Assembly: GCA_025055755.1 (NCBI GenBank)
Contig: JANWWF010000002.1
Coordinates: 263,628-327,627, forward strand
Length of the DNA stretch: 64,000 nucleotides
Direction: 5' to 3'
Source: Candidatus Kapaibacterium sp.
GTDB taxonomy: Bacteria; Bacteroidota; Ignavibacteria; Kapaibacteriales; NICIL-2
Positions 11,837-47,001 of this stretch are shown in pieces (within the stretch, counting starts at the first letter, position 1; every line of letters begins with the position of its first letter). The notes beneath the pieces were generated by a model. It did not search any database. It worked only from the letters and a program-made list of their open reading frames with translations, and was not told the origin of the DNA. A program made the translations under genes and the position numbers.

Positions 11837-14800
11837 ATGCATACGCGTTGTGCATTGCAGCACCTACGGGTGGTTGTACGCTGTGTAACGGTATTCTTAA
11901 TATGGACAGTGGGAGCTGCTCTATCAGCCGAGAAAGAGAGCTCTCCATATCAGGTCTTGAAAGAAGATTCTCGCTTCATAGTTATTGCATTTACTTTGCC
12001 CGCTTATACGCTTGATACAGTGGAAATCTCAGAGGGGATAAAAGCGATACAGATTCACAGTGTAGGGGAGATTTTTCCTGCCCATCGAATAGCTGGTGCC
12101 CCGATGGCACAAGAAATGGTTGCTCTATTGGCATTGCCTTCGCGAACGTCACGGTGGAAGCTTCGGGTGGACAGCATTCAAGAACAGTGGAGCAATCTTC
12201 CCCTTCTTCCTTATCCTGCGGGAGATAGGGACACTGGCACGTTAGGGGTACAGTTTTCTCTTGATCAGTGTAAATACAGCTATCACACTCTCTCCACAGT
12301 TCGGTTAGAGTATGTAGGAATAAGTCGTGGCATTCCACTTGGCCGTTTATCAATTCCAGTGATTGATTATGATCCAAAGCGGAAATCAACACGCATTCTT
12401 GAGCGGTGTATAATACGGATTGAATTCTTTGGGCAGCCAGAAGGGTGGGCAGATATTGAACAATCTGCCCCGGTTCTAAACGTGCGACAGCTTCACCTTT
12501 GGCAAAGGGAGACAAAGGCGACTCGACTCCTGCGACGCAAGACGCCTCCGCTTCCGTTTATCAGCGGTATGCCTATCGTGAAGATCACGGTTGCAGAAGA
12601 AGGTATTTATGCGATTACCGCGGAGCAGCTTGCATCTATTGGAGTGCGGATACCCCCTGACTTAGTGCATACAATCAAAGTATTTGGATATGGTGGGCAG
12701 CCCTTATCTGAGCTACCCACCGATGGCATGAGTAACACACCTGTTGAGCAGCCAATTATTGTTGAGACAAATACTGATGGAAGCTTACGTGCGGTGCTAC
12801 TGTATGCGGCACCTCCACGGGGCTTTTTGTTCGACACCGCATTAGGCCGCTGGCGTCGGTACATCAATCCATATACAACAAAGACGAGCTACCTGCTTAC
12901 GTACGGCGGTGCACCTGGGTTACGGTATGAAGCAGACCCACCACCGTCTCAAACTCCGACGGTGATACCGCAGTTTTTTCTTCAGCGACTGCTATTTGAG
13001 GAAGAGAGGGTCAATGCGTATAGTTCTTGCAGTGGACGTCGGTGGCTGGGTGATCCATTCGATGGATCAACAGGGATAACATTTACTGCGCCCCTTCCTG
13101 GACTAGCGATGAATGGAACCCATGTTGAATACACATTGTGCTTTGCCCATCGCGATGATGCTGGTGCTGCAGTTGCAGTACAAGAACATGGGGTCCCTGT
13201 TCGTTCATTGTCCATTCCTGGAAAAGCCGCGGGGAGATATGTAGAGTATATCTCGCTTGTTGACACTGTTCGCGTCCCCATAAGTCTTTTCTCTGATGGC
13301 AGAATGGGGCTTCGTCTTTTGTACCGCAATCAGCTTAATGCTGCCGCAACAGGGATAGTCGATTACGTCGAAGTGTGTTATCCTGCTCATTTTGTTGCTC
13401 ATAGCAATTCTTTGCATCTCTATACTGAGCCTACTGACAGGGGCGTAGTGGAATTCTCAGTCAGTGGTTTTTCAAGCCGTCCACTATGTTTGGATATTAC
13501 TGATCCAGTCCGTCCAAGGCTCCTCACAAATTTGTCTTCAGTCAATCAGCAGGCAACATTCCGTGTCGTGCTCGACAGTACGCAGGCAAAGCGTCCGCGT
13601 CAATATTACGTTAGTGCTGAACGGCGTCGGCCAGAGCTCAGTATCGTTCAAATTGGGGAGGCGCGGAATGTGGAACTGTCAGCAGATTTAGTGGTTATTA
13701 CGCCCTTAGAATTTTTCAACAGTGCACGAGCATTTGCGGAGTATCGAGCAGCCCATTCCGGGATCCAGGTGATTGTTATGCCGCTTGAGCACATCTATAC
13801 GGCATTTGCGGCAGGGATGCCAGACCCCACAGCCTTACGAGATTTTCTTAGCTATGCATACTTCAATTGGCAGCGACGTCCACGTTATGTTTTGCTCTGG
13901 GGAGATGGACACTGCGACTATCGTGGAATAGCCGCAACGGCCCCCAATTGGATACCGCCATACGAAAATGACAATGTCGAGACAGCTCTTGGAAGAGTCT
14001 ATTACTGGTCATATGCAGACGACAGCTACGTCACAGACGACTATTTCGTATGGGTAGATGGGAATGATCAAATCCTTGACTTAGCGATTGGACGAATGCC
14101 CGTTACTTCTGAAGCAATGGGCATGCAGCTGCTTTCGAAAATCAAAGCATATGAGATGCAATCCTCCCGGGATGCGTGGCAGACGACTGTAACATTGGTG
14201 GCTGACGACGGTCCTACCTCTGGAGGAAGGACCGACGGTGCTTTACATGTGAACTCGTCGGAAACATTATCGGCGGTTCTCTCTGCTCGCCTGCCAGCAC
14301 TTATCCAGCGGAAAGTGTACATGCCAGAGTTTCCTCTTTCCTCTGCCTCGGGGGGAAACCGAAAACCAGCAGCTACAGAAGCGATGCTTTCTATCATCAA
14401 TGGACAAGGAACGTTGTTTCTCAATTGGATGGGGCATGGCAATCCGCGCGTGTGGGCACATGAGGAAATCTTTGATCGGGACCGCACGATTTCCTTATTA
14501 CGGAATGAGCGGAAGAACTTCTTTCTCATTGCTGCGACCTGCGATTTTTCCCGCTTTGATATGCCCGATGTGCAAAGTGGAGGTGAACTTCTTGTGCAAT
14601 GGCCCAGTGGAGGAGCAATTGGGGTTTTTTCGGCAGCACGAGTCGTGTACACTTTTGCTAATGAAGCTATCAACCGCCGATTTTATGAAGAAGTAGCAAA
14701 GCGGAATGCTGACGGCAGACGGCGTACGTTAGGGGATGTAATGTTCGCGGTCAAACAGGTCTCGTTCAGTGATAACGACCGCCGCTATCTTCTCCTTGGG

Positions 14801-41821: not shown

Positions 41822-42886
41822 ATGTGCGGTATCCCAATGTCTTCCATCAAAGCGCGGGCAGCACAGTTTGCTATAGATTGGCTTGCGGGTACATACTTAG
41901 TAGCCATGCTTCATCGTATCCTATGGGCTGAGGTTATTATGGGAGTGCCTATACCGTTTGCATGGGGCGGTCCAGAGAGCGCGTCACTTATCGAGGGCGT
42001 TCCTGATTGGCTATTGTACTTAACGGTGGGAAGCGTGATTGCTGCATTTGCATCTGTTACAAAGGCATCTCTTGCATTGGTAGTGCAAGGGAAACTTCCT
42101 CATTCCTCATGGCAACGGACTGTGGCACTTCATCAAGGGGCACTGCTTGTGTCTTTGACCTTCATTACGGGATGGGTGGTGACCAAAATTTCTCTTGTGG
42201 ACATGTTCAGTGGGGAGCGCTTGCAGGCTGCCGGACGCATCTTTTCCAGCATGTTGCAACCAGAATGTTCTATTCTTCCCCAAGCACTCAATGCAATTGT
42301 GGAAACGGTGTACCTTGCGTTTATGGCAACGGTCCTGGCAGTGCCTGCATCCTTTGTGCTTTCGTTCCTTTCGGCGCGGAACTTAATGAAATCAAAGTTC
42401 TGGACGCGTGCCGTGTATTTATCGCTCCGAACACTTACAAACTTTACGCGCTCGATTGAACCGCTTGTGTGGGCAGTGATTTTCACAGTGTGGGTAAAGG
42501 TTGGTCCTTTCCCAGGTATGCTTGCTCTGATGGTCCACACGATTTCCTCCTTGACAAAGCAGTATTCAGAACAAATTGAGGACATTGATCCAGGTCCGCT
42601 GGAGGCAATTGCGTCAACGGGTGCACGCCAGCTTCAGATCGTGTGGTTTGGTGTCGTGCCACAGGTGTTTATCCCCTTTCTGTCGTTTACCATTTATCGC
42701 TGGGATATCAATGTCCGCATGGCAACAGTAATTGGTCTTGTCGGTGGGGGTGGTATTGGGACGATGCTCAATCAGTATCAAATGCTTGCGCAGTGGCATG
42801 AAGTCGGATTGATTGTCCTGGTGATTGCTGGAGTGGTGTGGGTGATGGATTATGTGTCAGCTCGTATCCGGGAGGCGTTGGTCTGA
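41822..42886 (+). CDS. phnE: PhnE-type ABC transporter permease
   Basis: A 354-residue membrane protein, longer than the usual 260-290 residue PhnE because of an N-terminal extension with two extra hydrophobic segments. The core has the PhnE features LRTLTNFTRSIEPLVWAVIF, QYSEQIEDIDPGPLEAIASTGA (EAA-type loop contacting the ATPase) and INVRMATVIGLVGGGGIG. It forms the membrane channel with PhnC. Its stop and the guaD ATG share one base, showing tight coupling to guanine deaminase. The substrate is unknown without a binding protein gene. Confidence 0.9.
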   Translation: MCGIPMSSIKARAAQFAIDWLAGTYLVAMLHRILWAEVIMGVPIPFAWGGPESASLIEGVPDWLLYLTVGSVIAAFASVTKASLALVVQGKLPHSSWQRTVALHQGALLVSLTFITGWVVTKISLVDMFSGERLQAAGRIFSSMLQPECSILPQALNAIVETVYLAFMATVLAVPASFVLSFLSARNLMKSKFWTRAVYLSLRTLTNFTRSIEPLVWAVIFTVWVKVGPFPGMLALMVHTISSLTKQYSEQIEDIDPGPLEAIASTGARQLQIVWFGVVPQVFIPFLSFTIYRWDINVRMATVIGLVGGGGIGTMLNQYQMLAQWHEVGLIVLVIAGVVWVMDYVSARIREALV

Positions 42887-44157
42887 TGCCAGCGATGATT
42901 TATCGCGGAGCGATCCTGCATGCAATTGACCGCGATACCATAGCCTTTTTCCCCGATGGTGGCTTGCTTGTTGAACGTGGTCGAATTGTTGCCTGCCAGC
43001 AGTTCGAACAGCTTCACGAGCAATGTCCGCGGGTTGCGGTTGCCGATTGGCGTGGAAGTCTTATCATTCCGGGGCTCGTAGATGCTCATGTCCACTTACC
43101 GCAAACAGAAGCCATTGGAGCTGAGCGCGACAACCTTCTCACATGGCTAGAGGAAGTCATATTCCCGACTGAGCGAAAGTTCCGGGATAGTAGCTACGCC
43201 GAGCTTATTGCGCATGCTTTCTTCCAGCAGGCACTAGCAGCAGGGGTTACGGCTATGGTAGTCTTTGCCCCACCGTATGAGGAAGCGACAGAAGTTTGTT
43301 TCCACGCTGCTTACGAGCGGGGCATTCGGGTAACGATGGGGATGACGCTCATGGATACCAATGTCCCTGAGGATTTGTGTGGCACACCGGATGAGCTTAT
43401 TGCTGCCTCTGAACGGCTTGCTGCACGATGGCACAACAAGGGAAGATTGCGGTATTGCATTACGCCACGCTTTGCGGGCAGTTGCTCACTCGAGCTGCTC
43501 AAGCGATGTGGAGAAACAGCCCAGGCGATGGGGCTCCCAATCCAGACACACCTTGCCGAATCTCCATCGGAACTGCAGCTTATCAAGTGCTTGTTCCCCT
43601 TGCACCGGGATTACACTAGTGTCTACGAGGACACTGGTATCCTTAGTGAGCGCACGCTGCTTGCCCATTGCATTTACCTAACTTCAGATGAACTCGAAAA
43701 AATCGAGCAGAGTCGCGCCGCTATTGTGCATTGTCCGTCATCGAACGTATACTTACAAAGTGGTATCATGCCGCTGGCTGAGTATCTGGATAGCTACAAC
43801 ATTCCCATCGGAATTGGCAGTGACATTGGAGCAGGGTACAATTGGAGCATGCTCCGGGAAGCCCGTGCAGCCAGGGAATGCAGCAAGATTCGGCACATTC
43901 AGGGGCATAGCCGGCGCATCATTAGCTTGGAGGAAGCTTTCTATTTGGCGACCTTAGGGGGAGCGCATGCTATTGGTCTTGCGCATGAAGTGGGGAATTT
44001 TGCGGTAGGCAAAGCTGCAGACTTTGTCCGCGTGTCTGTGCCGTCGTATCGTTCCTTAACGACGGCGCGGCAAGCACTTGAATACCTTCTTTATGCTGGC
44101 ACAGAGGCGATTCTTTCGACAACTATCGAAGGAGAGTGTGTATGGCAGAGACCTTGA
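42886..44157 (+). CDS. guaD: Guanine deaminase-like amidohydrolase
   Basis: A 423-residue metal-dependent hydrolase. Zinc ligands are visible in PGLVDAHVHLPQ (HxH), THLAESPSE, LAHCIYLTSDELE and GIGSDIGAGYN (Asp). The HVHLPQ and HCPSSNVYL blocks are typical of guanine deaminase, which converts guanine to xanthine and ammonia. Related enzymes act on other aminated heterocycles, so guanine is likely but not proven. Its ATG overlaps the phnE stop by one base and its 3' end overlaps the flavoenzyme gene by 16 bases. The operon context suggests the linked ABC transporter could bring in a purine or related compound (inference). Confidence 0.87.
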   Translation: MPAMIYRGAILHAIDRDTIAFFPDGGLLVERGRIVACQQFEQLHEQCPRVAVADWRGSLIIPGLVDAHVHLPQTEAIGAERDNLLTWLEEVIFPTERKFRDSSYAELIAHAFFQQALAAGVTAMVVFAPPYEEATEVCFHAAYERGIRVTMGMTLMDTNVPEDLCGTPDELIAASERLAARWHNKGRLRYCITPRFAGSCSLELLKRCGETAQAMGLPIQTHLAESPSELQLIKCLFPLHRDYTSVYEDTGILSERTLLAHCIYLTSDELEKIEQSRAAIVHCPSSNVYLQSGIMPLAEYLDSYNIPIGIGSDIGAGYNWSMLREARAARECSKIRHIQGHSRRIISLEEAFYLATLGGAHAIGLAHEVGNFAVGKAADFVRVSVPSYRSLTTARQALEYLLYAGTEAILSTTIEGECVWQRP

Positions 44158-45206
44158 ATGTTAGCGCTCTTGCTGAGCAAATGCGTGAGCGGTCGCACCA
44201 ATGGAGCAACACCCCTACTTTGCCTCCCGACATTGTTGATCTTCTCGTTAATAATCGGTTGTTCAAGCTGTTTGTCCCCGCAGAGCTTGGTGGCTGGGAG
44301 AGTAACTTAGAGTATGCGGCCCATATTTATGCAGAACTCGGTGCTGCAGATGGGAGCATAGGATGGCTTGTCCAGATTGGGTCAGGAGGGGGATTCTTTG
44401 TTCCATCGTTTCATCCGAGCATAGCAGAAGAACTTTTTGGACCTTCTACTGCTGTCGTCGCAGGGTCTGGCTATCCTACAGGTCGTGCACGGAAAGTTGT
44501 TGGAGGCTACATCGTCCGCGGGCAATGGAAGTACGCCAGCGGGGCACAATATGCAAGTGTCTTTACAGCCAACGCAGTTGTGGAGGAAACAGGGGCAATC
44601 CGAGCATTTGCATTTCGCCCAGAACAAGTAGAGCTTGTCCATGATTGGCATGCGATGGGCATGCGCGCTACATCAAGCTGGACATTTCGCGTTCACGATG
44701 TCTTTGTACCCGAAGAGCTGAGCTTCGTGGTTGGTGAGAAAGTATGGGAGCCTGGTGGAACTGTCTATGATGTTCCCTTTCTCACGTTTGCGATCATTTC
44801 GATGGGAGCAGTTTCTATGGGCTTGGCGCGAGCATTCTTTGCAGAAGCTATAGCAGTCCTCTCCGATGCCCCTGAACGTACAGCTTCCATAGCCGAGTAT
44901 CATCAGAAAAGCCAGACTGCTGAAGAGACTTTCTTTGCGTTGGTCCGACAGGTTGAGAATAGGGCTACCGGTAGGGGGGTAGAGCAAGCACTAATAGAGC
45001 AGCAATTACTGCAGTCTATTCACCAGCAGCGCATGTATGTTCTGGAGGCTGTGCCCTACTGTGGAATGCGCATCGTCGATGAGCAGTCGCGGCTAAATCG
45101 AATTTTACGGGACATGATGGTGCTCTATCAACACGAAATTCTCCGCCCTCGTATGGCAGTGGAGGTGCCGGGAGTCGAACCCGGGTCCGAAGTACCAGTC
45201 GCGTAG
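44142..45206 (+). CDS. Acyl-CoA dehydrogenase-fold flavin-dependent oxygenase-like protein
   Basis: About 354 residues. It has the acyl-CoA dehydrogenase fold (LPPDIVDLLVNNRLFKLFVP, GGYIVRGQWKYASG, MGMRATSSWTFRVHDVFVP) but lacks the usual catalytic-glutamate block. This pattern is shared with two-component flavin monooxygenases such as HsaA and the dibenzothiophene oxygenases, so a hydroxylase using reduced flavin is the best guess. No flavin reductase gene adjoins. It is last in the recN-phnC-phnE-guaD run, overlapping guaD by 16 bases, with GGAG seven bases before ATG 44142. Family sequences end near QHEILRPR; the last 15 residues here are read from DNA that is the antisense of the tmRNA 3' end. 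Confidence 0.8.
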   Translation: MAETLNVSALAEQMRERSHQWSNTPTLPPDIVDLLVNNRLFKLFVPAELGGWESNLEYAAHIYAELGAADGSIGWLVQIGSGGGFFVPSFHPSIAEELFGPSTAVVAGSGYPTGRARKVVGGYIVRGQWKYASGAQYASVFTANAVVEETGAIRAFAFRPEQVELVHDWHAMGMRATSSWTFRVHDVFVPEELSFVVGEKVWEPGGTVYDVPFLTFAIISMGAVSMGLARAFFAEAIAVLSDAPERTASIAEYHQKSQTAEETFFALVRQVENRATGRGVEQALIEQQLLQSIHQQRMYVLEAVPYCGMRIVDEQSRLNRILRDMMVLYQHEILRPRMAVEVPGVEPGSEVPVA

Positions 45207-45556
45207 CGTCTCCATGCTCAGTCGCTCTATGGAGCTTTACTCCACCGGTAGCGGAGCGACACGCGCGGTGGAGCTATCGTTCTTGTGAGCAGTTCCTGCA
45301 GCGGAACGATACACTGCAGAAACCGGCCATCAGGTGTCCGATGCTGCATCCGCATAGGTGATGGCGCCTATGCAGGCAGCAGGGAGCGGAGCTTCGCTCA
45401 ACGCATCCCAACAATGGCGCCCTAACTATTAGGCTGCCATTGCGTAGCTGTACGAGTTGGCATTTTGCCTTTGCTGGTTGTATTTACGAGCATCACCAGC
45501 AAGCTCGGCATGCAGCTACGTCGGCTGTCGTACTCCGTCGAAACCACGTCACCCCC
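45160..45556 (-). ncRNA. ssrA: Transfer-messenger RNA (tmRNA)
   Basis: A 397-nt tmRNA. The 5' end reads GGGGGTGACGTGGTTTCGACGG, and the 3' tRNA-like half has GGGTTCGACTCCC and ends CACCTCCA, which pairs with the 5' GGGGGTG. CCA is not encoded. The tag-reading frame at 45461-45429 encodes ANSYSYAMAA followed by TAA and TAG. This is very close to the Chlorobium tag ADDYSYAMAA as I recall it and is the best lineage marker in the window. tmRNA rescues stalled ribosomes and marks the nascent peptide for proteolysis. It lies 46 bases after the truncated clpB, and its 3' end overlaps the flavoenzyme gene on the other strand by 47 bases. Confidence 0.97.
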
Positions 45557-45602
45557 TCAAGGCATCATTGCAAGACGTAGTTAGCTCAGCGATATTTTGA
45601 GT

Positions 45603-46934
45603 TTAGGGACGCCCGTCGCTTGTCTCGATACCGGTTGCTTGCAACTCTCGGAGAAGAGCCTGCCGCTCAATTTCCAACTGGCGAATGCGTCGTTCGAGCA
45701 AGTCCAGCTCCTCGGGCAGTGAATCAATTTCCATCCGCAGCTTTGCTGCCGCTTCGTCAATGAGATCGATTGCTTTATCGGGAAGGAAGCGGTCAGTGAT
45801 GTATCGGTGGGAAAGCTGTGCAGCTGCAACTATTGCTGCATCGGTAATGCGGACACCGTGGTGAACCTCATACCGCTCTTTTAAGCCACGCAGAATAGAA
45901 ATAGTGTCTTCAACCGATGGTTCATCAACAAACACTTTCTGGAAGCGCCGCTCAAGGGCAGGGTCTTTTTCGATGTACTTCTGGTATTCGTCGAGAGTAG
46001 TAGCGCCGATGCATCGCAGCTCACCTCGAGCGAGTGCAGGCTTGAGAATGTTTGCGGCGTCCATGCTTCCTTGAGTGGCTCCTGCACCGATGAGGGTATG
46101 GATTTCATCTATGAACAGGATGATTTCACCATTTGACTCGGAGACCTCCTTGACCACTGCTTTAAGGCGTTCCTCAAATTGTCCGCGGAAACTTGTCCCT
46201 GCAACCAATGCTCCCATATCAAGAGCTACAATTGTCTTTGTGCGAAGTGGCTCCGGAACATCCCCACTGACAATACGTTGCGCTATGCCTTCGACGATTG
46301 CGGTTTTTCCTACGCCCGGTTCACCGATAAGCACAGGATTATTTTTTGTCCGTCGAGAAAGAACTTGAAGGACACGACGAATCTCATCCTCGCGGCCTAT
46401 GACCGGATCAATTTTCCCTTTGCGTGCTTCATCGTTGAGGTTTCGGCCATACTTCTGAAGAGCCTGGTAGCGTTCCTCAGGGTTTTGGTCTGTAATGCGG
46501 CTATCTTTACGGATGTCACGAATGATCTTAAGTACCGAATCACGGGTGATACTCTGGTCCAAAAGCAGGCGCTGCGCAGTCGATTTTTCTGTAACTAACG
46601 CCAATAGCAAATGCTCTACACTGATGTATTCATCTCGCATTTGTTGAGCTTCCCGGAATGCTTGTTGCAGCACGCTGCTTAGTGAACTGGAAAGGTAGGT
46701 TTCCCCTCCGCTCACCTTGGGAAGACGTTCGATTTCTTCCTGTACCTTTGTTCGAAGATAGTTGACATTCCCACCGATTCTTCCGATTATCGTTGGGACA
46801 AGTCCTTGTGTGTCCTCCAGCAATGCAGCAAGCAAGTGCACCGGCTCCAGTGACTGGTTACTCGCGTTGATTGCGATCTCCTGGGCACGCTGAAATGCTT
46901 CTTGCGATTTGAGAGTGAGTTTGTTGAAATTCAT
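45603..46934 (-). CDS. clpB: ClpB-type chaperone truncated after the first ATPase domain
   Basis: A 443-residue protein, half the usual ClpB length (about 860). The N-terminal Clp repeat domain is intact ([31 protein letters not shown]). The first ATPase domain is complete: Walker [11 protein letters not shown] at about residues 204-213, Walker [15 protein letters not shown], and [13 protein letters not shown] arginine-finger region. The middle coiled coil has only begun ([24 protein letters not shown]) when the frame ends in [11 protein letters not shown] and TAA. The M domain and second ATPase domain are absent from the window, and the tmRNA begins 46 bases on. It could be a functional short form, half of a split gene, or a decayed copy. 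ATG 46934 is the family start. Confidence 0.88.
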
Positions 46935-47001
46935 GGCGAAAATCAAACAATGTCTTACAAAGCACTGGTTCAAGACGAATCCAATTGCGGTGTAGCGTTT
47001 T

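Follow-up and report, generated by a model that had tools for sequence, protein, structure and literature searches.

Introduction

Integrative elements classically attach at the 3' end of ssrA, the gene for tmRNA. A coding gene can also be the site of such an event, as in Escherichia coli, where a phage integrating at icd replaces the 3' end of that host enzyme gene.

Islands at tmRNA genes are common. The Islander survey found tmRNA genes to be the most enriched target, ahead of every type of tRNA gene. Although this survey discards fragments lying over the domain part of a coding gene, an overlap with a RefSeq CDS is recorded for 626 of its 3919 islands (PMC4383910). Coding sequence that runs into ssrA is described for Dehalococcoides, where the islands have a 20-bp repeat and the 3' end of the integrase gene dsiB is antisense to the 3' end of ssrA over about 70 bp; the dsiB stop codon is reached only past the island edge, and the authors deem a functional C-terminal region there unlikely (PMC3146451). 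The same paper refers to an earlier report that in some bacteria small ORFs lie opposite ssrA and overlap it. In the literature searched, partly available as excerpts, dsiB was the one described case of coding sequence antisense to ssrA besides these cited small ORFs, and the accessible part of PMC11915505 holds nothing on antisense genes.

Here we describe a metabolic enzyme gene of Candidatus Kapaibacterium sp. that ends inside ssrA. The window (the whole stretch of DNA analysed, 64,000 nucleotides) belongs to genome G000, an assembly of 136 contigs; related genomes are designated accordingly.

Results

A flavoenzyme gene ends within ssrA

The flavoenzyme gene (44136–45206, forward strand) encodes a protein of 356 aa and stops with a TAG at 45204–45206. 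On the reverse strand, ssrA (tag peptide ANSYSYAMAA) occupies 45159–45556 according to ARAGORN and 45157–45556 according to Rfam, where it matches RF00023 at full length (model positions 1–374 of 374, 157.4 bits, E 4e-62). Residue 342 starts at 45159, and the stretch common to the ORF and the tmRNA is 45159–45206, or 48 nt, comprising the 15 codons of the tail VEVPGVEPGSEVPVA and the TAG, all opposite the tmRNA 3' end. The first 12 bases of this stretch, GTGGAGGTGCCG (45159–45170, forward strand), correspond to the acceptor 3' strand and the first T-stem bases of the tmRNA and serve as codons 342–345 of the enzyme. The initial annotation had seen 15 codons and a stop opposite the T-arm and acceptor stem; they are indeed present, but the overlap is slightly larger, as it continues for about 20 nt beyond the acceptor 3' strand and T-arm. 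The suggestion that the stop codon is borrowed from the tmRNA antisense holds for the TAG as well as for the last 15 codons, judged by the ARAGORN, Rfam and ORF coordinates.

Upstream, the start of the flavoenzyme gene is overlapped by the end of a guanine deaminase gene (42838–44157, forward strand; NCBIfam PRK09228 with 401 bits and TIGR02967 with 383.3 bits, both above the cut-off), and a gene for a PhnE-type permease is the other upstream neighbour. The enzyme is acyl-CoA-dehydrogenase-like, scoring just above the cut-off of Pfam Acyl-CoA_dh_N (25.1 vs 22.9 bits). Its scores against the NCBIfam equivalogs HsaA, SfnB and hydroxyphenylacetate hydroxylase (91.6, 65.6 and 68.2 bits) do not reach the respective cut-offs (450, 430.9 and 650 bits), and it is a distant relative rather than a member of these families. 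Three homologues within the genus share 52–54% identity with it, and the copies in G001 and G004 differ from each other by a dN of 0.092 and a dS of 0.356, purifying selection thus having kept acting on the enzyme in that line. Since the Pfam match, the NCBIfam relatives, the identity to homologues and the low dN/dS agree, we consider the ORF a real gene, and its end inside ssrA is confirmed.

How exceptional such an arrangement is was assessed with two sets of tmRNA loci. The first consists of 58 loci of the order, 53 of them flanked by 900 nt or more, and the window is the only one where ssrA is entered by a convergent ORF at least 300 codons long. The enlarged set comprises 142 loci, of which 137 were located by a motif and 130 have at least 330 nt of flank; seven of those located had less, and five of the 84 added class loci (L192, L193, L229, L231 and L236) were missed by the motif. 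The 84 are a non-random sample, as 60 were hand-picked among the best-ranked entries of a list, skipping several close to contig ends and some others, and 24 were further loci. An ORF with at least 80 codons outside ssrA enters the gene at nine of the 130 loci, including the window, with ten such ORFs in total. None of the nine ORFs other than that of the window matches a Pfam family at E 0.01, so a supported gene runs into ssrA at one locus in 130. We also considered whether the window ORF is a chance open frame like those at the eight other loci, and rejected this because theirs lack a Pfam match while that of the window has one.

The tail derives from the tmRNA

The initial annotation had proposed that proteins of this family end near the residues just before the overlap, and had named the same tail in homologues away from ssrA as the finding that would count against a tmRNA origin. 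We compared the C-termini of 11 distinct homologues after a conserved QH motif. In the window protein 23 residues follow QH, 8 of them before ssrA and 15 from ssrA. The corresponding lengths are 14 in G005, 17 in both G004 and G001, 13 in G011, 14 in G038, 25 in G033, 8 in both G027 and G020, 4 in G028, 15 in L076 and 4 in L081. The family therefore ends only roughly where proposed, as the homologues vary from 4 to 25 residues past QH, against the 8 pre-ssrA residues of the window. As G033 carries an unrelated tail of 25 residues, such lengths arise without ssrA.

The 15-residue tail itself is absent from all 11 homologues, none of which contains VEVPGVEPGS. This includes the six (G011, G020, G027, G028, G033 and G038) in which the gene and the tmRNA gene lie on separate contigs and no part of the tail occurs, so the adverse finding named beforehand did not materialise. 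Its first four residues, VEVP, are present in two homologues, G004 and G001. Conversely, the antisense frame of the four ssrA genes of the genus that were examined, whether overlapped or not, reads VEVPGVEPGSxxPxA followed by the same TAG, and hence the tail sequence belongs to the tmRNA and not to the protein family.

An AlphaFold2 model of the enzyme computed from 18 sequences (mean pLDDT 89.2, pTM 0.89) places the last helix of at least four residues at 319–330 and has a pLDDT below 50 at residues 340–345 and 347–356. Residues 342–356 are thus predicted to lie outside the enzyme fold and, with nearly all of 340–356 below 50, the tail is probably tolerated by the enzyme.

A putative integrative element separates the gene from ssrA in a relative

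In G004, a species of the same genus, an element of 5.5 kb lies between the flavoenzyme gene and ssrA. It is bounded by a 14-bp direct repeat, TTGTGGAGGTGCCG, of which the 11-kb locus contains exactly two copies, one within the gene (L043:3454) and one at the end of ssrA (L043:8954), 5500 bp apart. This repeat, which contains the 12-mer GTGGAGGTGCCG of the window, forms the ssrA 3' end and at the same time supplies in-frame enzyme codons (GTG GAG GTG CCG). The G004 enzyme ends in ...PVVEVPSTVVER and a stop. When the flanks are joined in silico at the repeat, an ORF of 382 aa results that ends in ...HELLRRPVVEVPGVEPGSGAPVA and a stop; its tail, VEVPGVEPGSGAPVA before the stop, has the same frame, the same length and the same stop as that of the window. 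The element has swapped 11 enzyme residues for six and a stop.

The VEVP of G004 is shown by its position in this repeat to be a remnant of ssrA, and that of G001 would be one too, given its identical sequence.

Adjoining ssrA, the element encodes a tyrosine integrase (L043:7605–8792; PF22022, PF13356 and PF00589, with 77.9 bits for Phage_int_M and 40.5 bits for Phage_integrase; phrog_1, E 3.9e-52). It also holds an AlpA-like regulator/excisionase, an AAA/helicase-like ATPase, a weak primase match and two ORFs with no matches. The ssrA gene is intact (ARAGORN tmRNA c[8956,9350]), and a 3' fragment of it, although a short one, lies downstream in the same orientation with the integrase gene between the two. 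The 5500 bp fall within the Islander size range of 2–200 kb and, as that survey demands, the fragment is outside the domain part of the coding gene: the sole Pfam domain of the G004 enzyme covers residues 17–84 and the fragment lies at codons 367–371. These features point to a site-specific integration of the element at ssrA, although a naturally empty site was not seen in that species. A search of the other 60 genomes at E 1e-20 gave no match to the integrase, and the repeat is short compared with the 20 bp of the Dehalococcoides islands.

The 12-mer occurs 0–3 times per genome of the genus, compared with 0–2 times for a reversed control pattern. It is not rare by itself, and the case therefore rests on position, frame and the 14-bp repeat. 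In the genome of the window it is found at window position 45159, at window position 12818 on the reverse strand and on contig C43; the copy at 12818 is distant from tmRNA matches and probably due to chance. An island in the window itself was considered and rejected, as nothing in G000 matches the G004 integrase at E 1e-20 and the 12-mer is present three times in the genome. From this distribution and the missing integrase match, the window looks like an empty site.

The ssrA locus in other members of the genus

In G005 the flavoenzyme gene stops 115 nt short of ssrA, and downstream of the ssrA 3' end lies a hairpin with a T-run that resembles a terminator. G002 gave no match to the flavoenzyme, and its guanine deaminase gene ends 64 nt before ssrA. 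In G003 neither a guanine deaminase nor a flavoenzyme match was obtained and the tmRNA model gave only weak matches below the cut-off, which makes this genome uninformative on the overlap.

In G001 the gene carries the same VEVP codons, and 40 of the 54 bases that follow are identical to the end of the G004 element, as compared with 24 of 54 for the best of 2000 random placements in that element. The G001 contig ends 489 nt past the core and the assembly has no tmRNA match, so the far side of this junction is out of view; what follows the core may be not an element but old chromosomal DNA. Judged by eye, the contig end itself (L046 4050–4555) seems to repeat the contig's own sequence in inverted orientation, which is probably an artefact of the assembly.

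The surroundings of ssrA are rearranged within the genus. On the ssrA 5' side in G005 (L045, right of ssrA) there is an inverted pair of genes for an acyl-CoA dehydrogenase and lipoyl synthase, not clpB. In G007, too, an acyl-CoA dehydrogenase homologue is found just before ssrA.

A split clpB gene beside ssrA

The other neighbour of ssrA in the window is an incomplete clpB (45603–46973, reverse strand), which is split into two distant genes. The N-terminal half (456 aa; Clp_N, AAA and lid) adjoins ssrA and ends near the start of the middle domain, while the C-terminal half (445 aa; L156:654–1991 on G000:C48) consists of the middle domain and the second ATPase. Such C-terminal halves, for which the search was limited to the genus, were also read in G002 and G005 (L158:702–2132 and L159:859–2196). 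The G004 counterpart (L157, G004:C1:983500–987000) consists of two overlapping frames of 338 and 224 aa, which suggests a frameshift or a sequencing error. Frames for N-terminal halves of about 450–500 aa exist in G003, G005, G007, G011, G033 and G038, and the match is broken or partial in G006 and G001. No natural split ClpB was found in the literature searched. Only 46 nt (45557–45602) separate the stop of the N-terminal half from the 5' end of ssrA on the same strand; co-transcription of ssrA with clpB, or an ssrA promoter within clpB, is possible.

Terminators and antisense transcription

A transcript of the enzyme operon that passes the stop codon must be antisense to the tmRNA. A consensus scan of the forward strand, from the last third of the flavoenzyme gene to the 5' end of ssrA, revealed no strong terminator, which makes antisense transcription across the tmRNA plausible as far as sequence can indicate. 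The scan likewise gave no convincing terminator-like site for ssrA within the flavoenzyme gene of the window, and a search for a hairpin with T-run in the 150 nt past the ssrA 3' end was negative in the window, G002 and G004 and positive in G005. The consensus scan performs near chance, with 3 candidates in the window vs 2.7 expected. By a lax ad hoc rule, 43 of 56 loci have some terminator candidate within 150 nt, and it is the contrast of the window with G005 and these loci that lends weak support.

Discussion

Origin of the overlap

The overlap looks real and old, and is probably passive. The account we favour, and hold to be probable, combines a deletion, a passively acquired tail antisense to ssrA and the later arrival of an ssrA-targeting element that rewrote this tail in the G001/G004 line. 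We infer a direction of change in which a deletion, most simply in an ancestor common to the window species and the G001/G004 lineage, would have removed the DNA between the coding region and ssrA, including the last codons and stop of the enzyme and the terminator of ssrA. The frame would then have continued into the opposite strand of ssrA up to the TAG that the tmRNA sequence imposes, adding a tail outside the enzyme fold that was probably tolerated. The same bases would then act at once as tmRNA end, attB core and enzyme codons, a triple role that arises because the ssrA 3' end is where integrative elements attach. Insertion in the G004 lineage would have left ssrA whole, with element DNA now supplying the enzyme's short new tail and its stop.

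The same picture might come from a chimeric contig or from a frame that is open by chance. The window genome is indeed fragmented into its 136 contigs, and open frames are frequent antisense to ssrA, the other two running for at least 42 codons in the window; yet the in-frame junction recurs independently in G004, on one contig, and in G001, and synteny extends on both sides in G002 and G004, so that an artefact of assembly or annotation is hardly credible. A single deletion is harder to separate from two, one in the window lineage and one in the G001/G004 lineage. Trees were built from RecN, a concatenation of four proteins, the flavoenzyme and the tmRNA. G000 is basal in the RecN tree (support 56), groups with G001/G004 in the flavoenzyme tree (71) and receives no placement in the tmRNA tree (37, 41), the firm groups being G001 with G004 (100) and, in RecN alone, G003 with G005 (93). 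The phylogeny of the genus is almost a star and the trees do not place G000, so that one fusion and two are not firmly told apart. Besides the near-star phylogeny, a one-codon difference in the spacing from QH to the core would fit separate deletions, but the frame is the same and the junction nearly so, and as a single event is simpler we regard two as rather unlikely.

The remaining alternatives assign the overlap a function. If the tail VEVPGVEPGSEVPVA served the flavoenzyme itself, an open frame both in the window and in the reconstructed empty site of G004 would be expected, as found. However, its letters are dictated by the tmRNA, the same frame being present in four ssrA genes of the genus regardless of overlap; it is missing from all 11 homologues, has a low pLDDT and was swapped out in G004/G001 though the enzyme remained under purifying selection, which leaves a functional tail very improbable. 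A regulatory device, in which read-through from the guanine deaminase–flavoenzyme operon or polymerase collision would tie the tmRNA level to the operon, gains from the 48-nt convergent overlap, from the want of a strong terminator-like site near it for either transcript in the window, and from the reconstructed empty site, which implies a former overlap in the G004 lineage as well. Against a conserved role of this kind, the overlap is absent or interrupted in the three further genomes of the genus that show the locus on both sides, G005 having a gap and a terminator-like site, G002 no flavoenzyme match and G004 5.5 kb of intervening DNA; we consider such a device doubtful. About as doubtful is an extension of this idea, in which one short stretch would be tmRNA acceptor end, attachment core and enzyme codons, and the arrival of an element would act as a switch, swapping the C-terminus and parting the operon from ssrA, thereby ending antisense transcription. 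If this were true and elements come and go, a mobile element would couple and uncouple ribosome rescue and the operon.

Comparison with known systems

On the account of a deletion followed by element insertion, the locus would be a natural case where the opposite strand carries a non-coding RNA gene that sets the C-terminus of a host protein, and where an element then rewrites this C-terminus in a relative. It would illustrate how neighbouring proteins can be altered in a simple way by islands that sit at tRNA or tmRNA genes and are not aimed at these proteins. It would also make convergent transcription through an important RNA gene open to testing, and annotators should be warned that the tail is tmRNA antisense and not sequence of the protein family.

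The exchange resembles the icd case in its outcome and differs in its logic. At icd the phage targets the enzyme gene and brings a homologous end, whereas in G004 ssrA is the target, the enzyme is a bystander and the new tail is unrelated.

The G004 element is similar to the islands of the Islander survey in having a tyrosine integrase, an intact ssrA and a displaced 3' fragment in direct orientation, within a total of 5.5 kb. It is unlike them in that the fragment falls within the final codons of an enzyme gene, whose C-terminus it sets. In the window as in dsiB, a protein gene has its 3' end opposite the 3' end of ssrA, and its frame enters ssrA and stops there. However, dsiB encodes a serine integrase on a mobile element, while the window gene encodes no site-specific recombinase but an acyl-CoA-dehydrogenase-like flavoenzyme, and the element of the relative came on top. 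What is new compared with dsiB and the known islands is that the gene is that of a metabolic enzyme, and that an element landing in the ssrA of a relative has altered its end.
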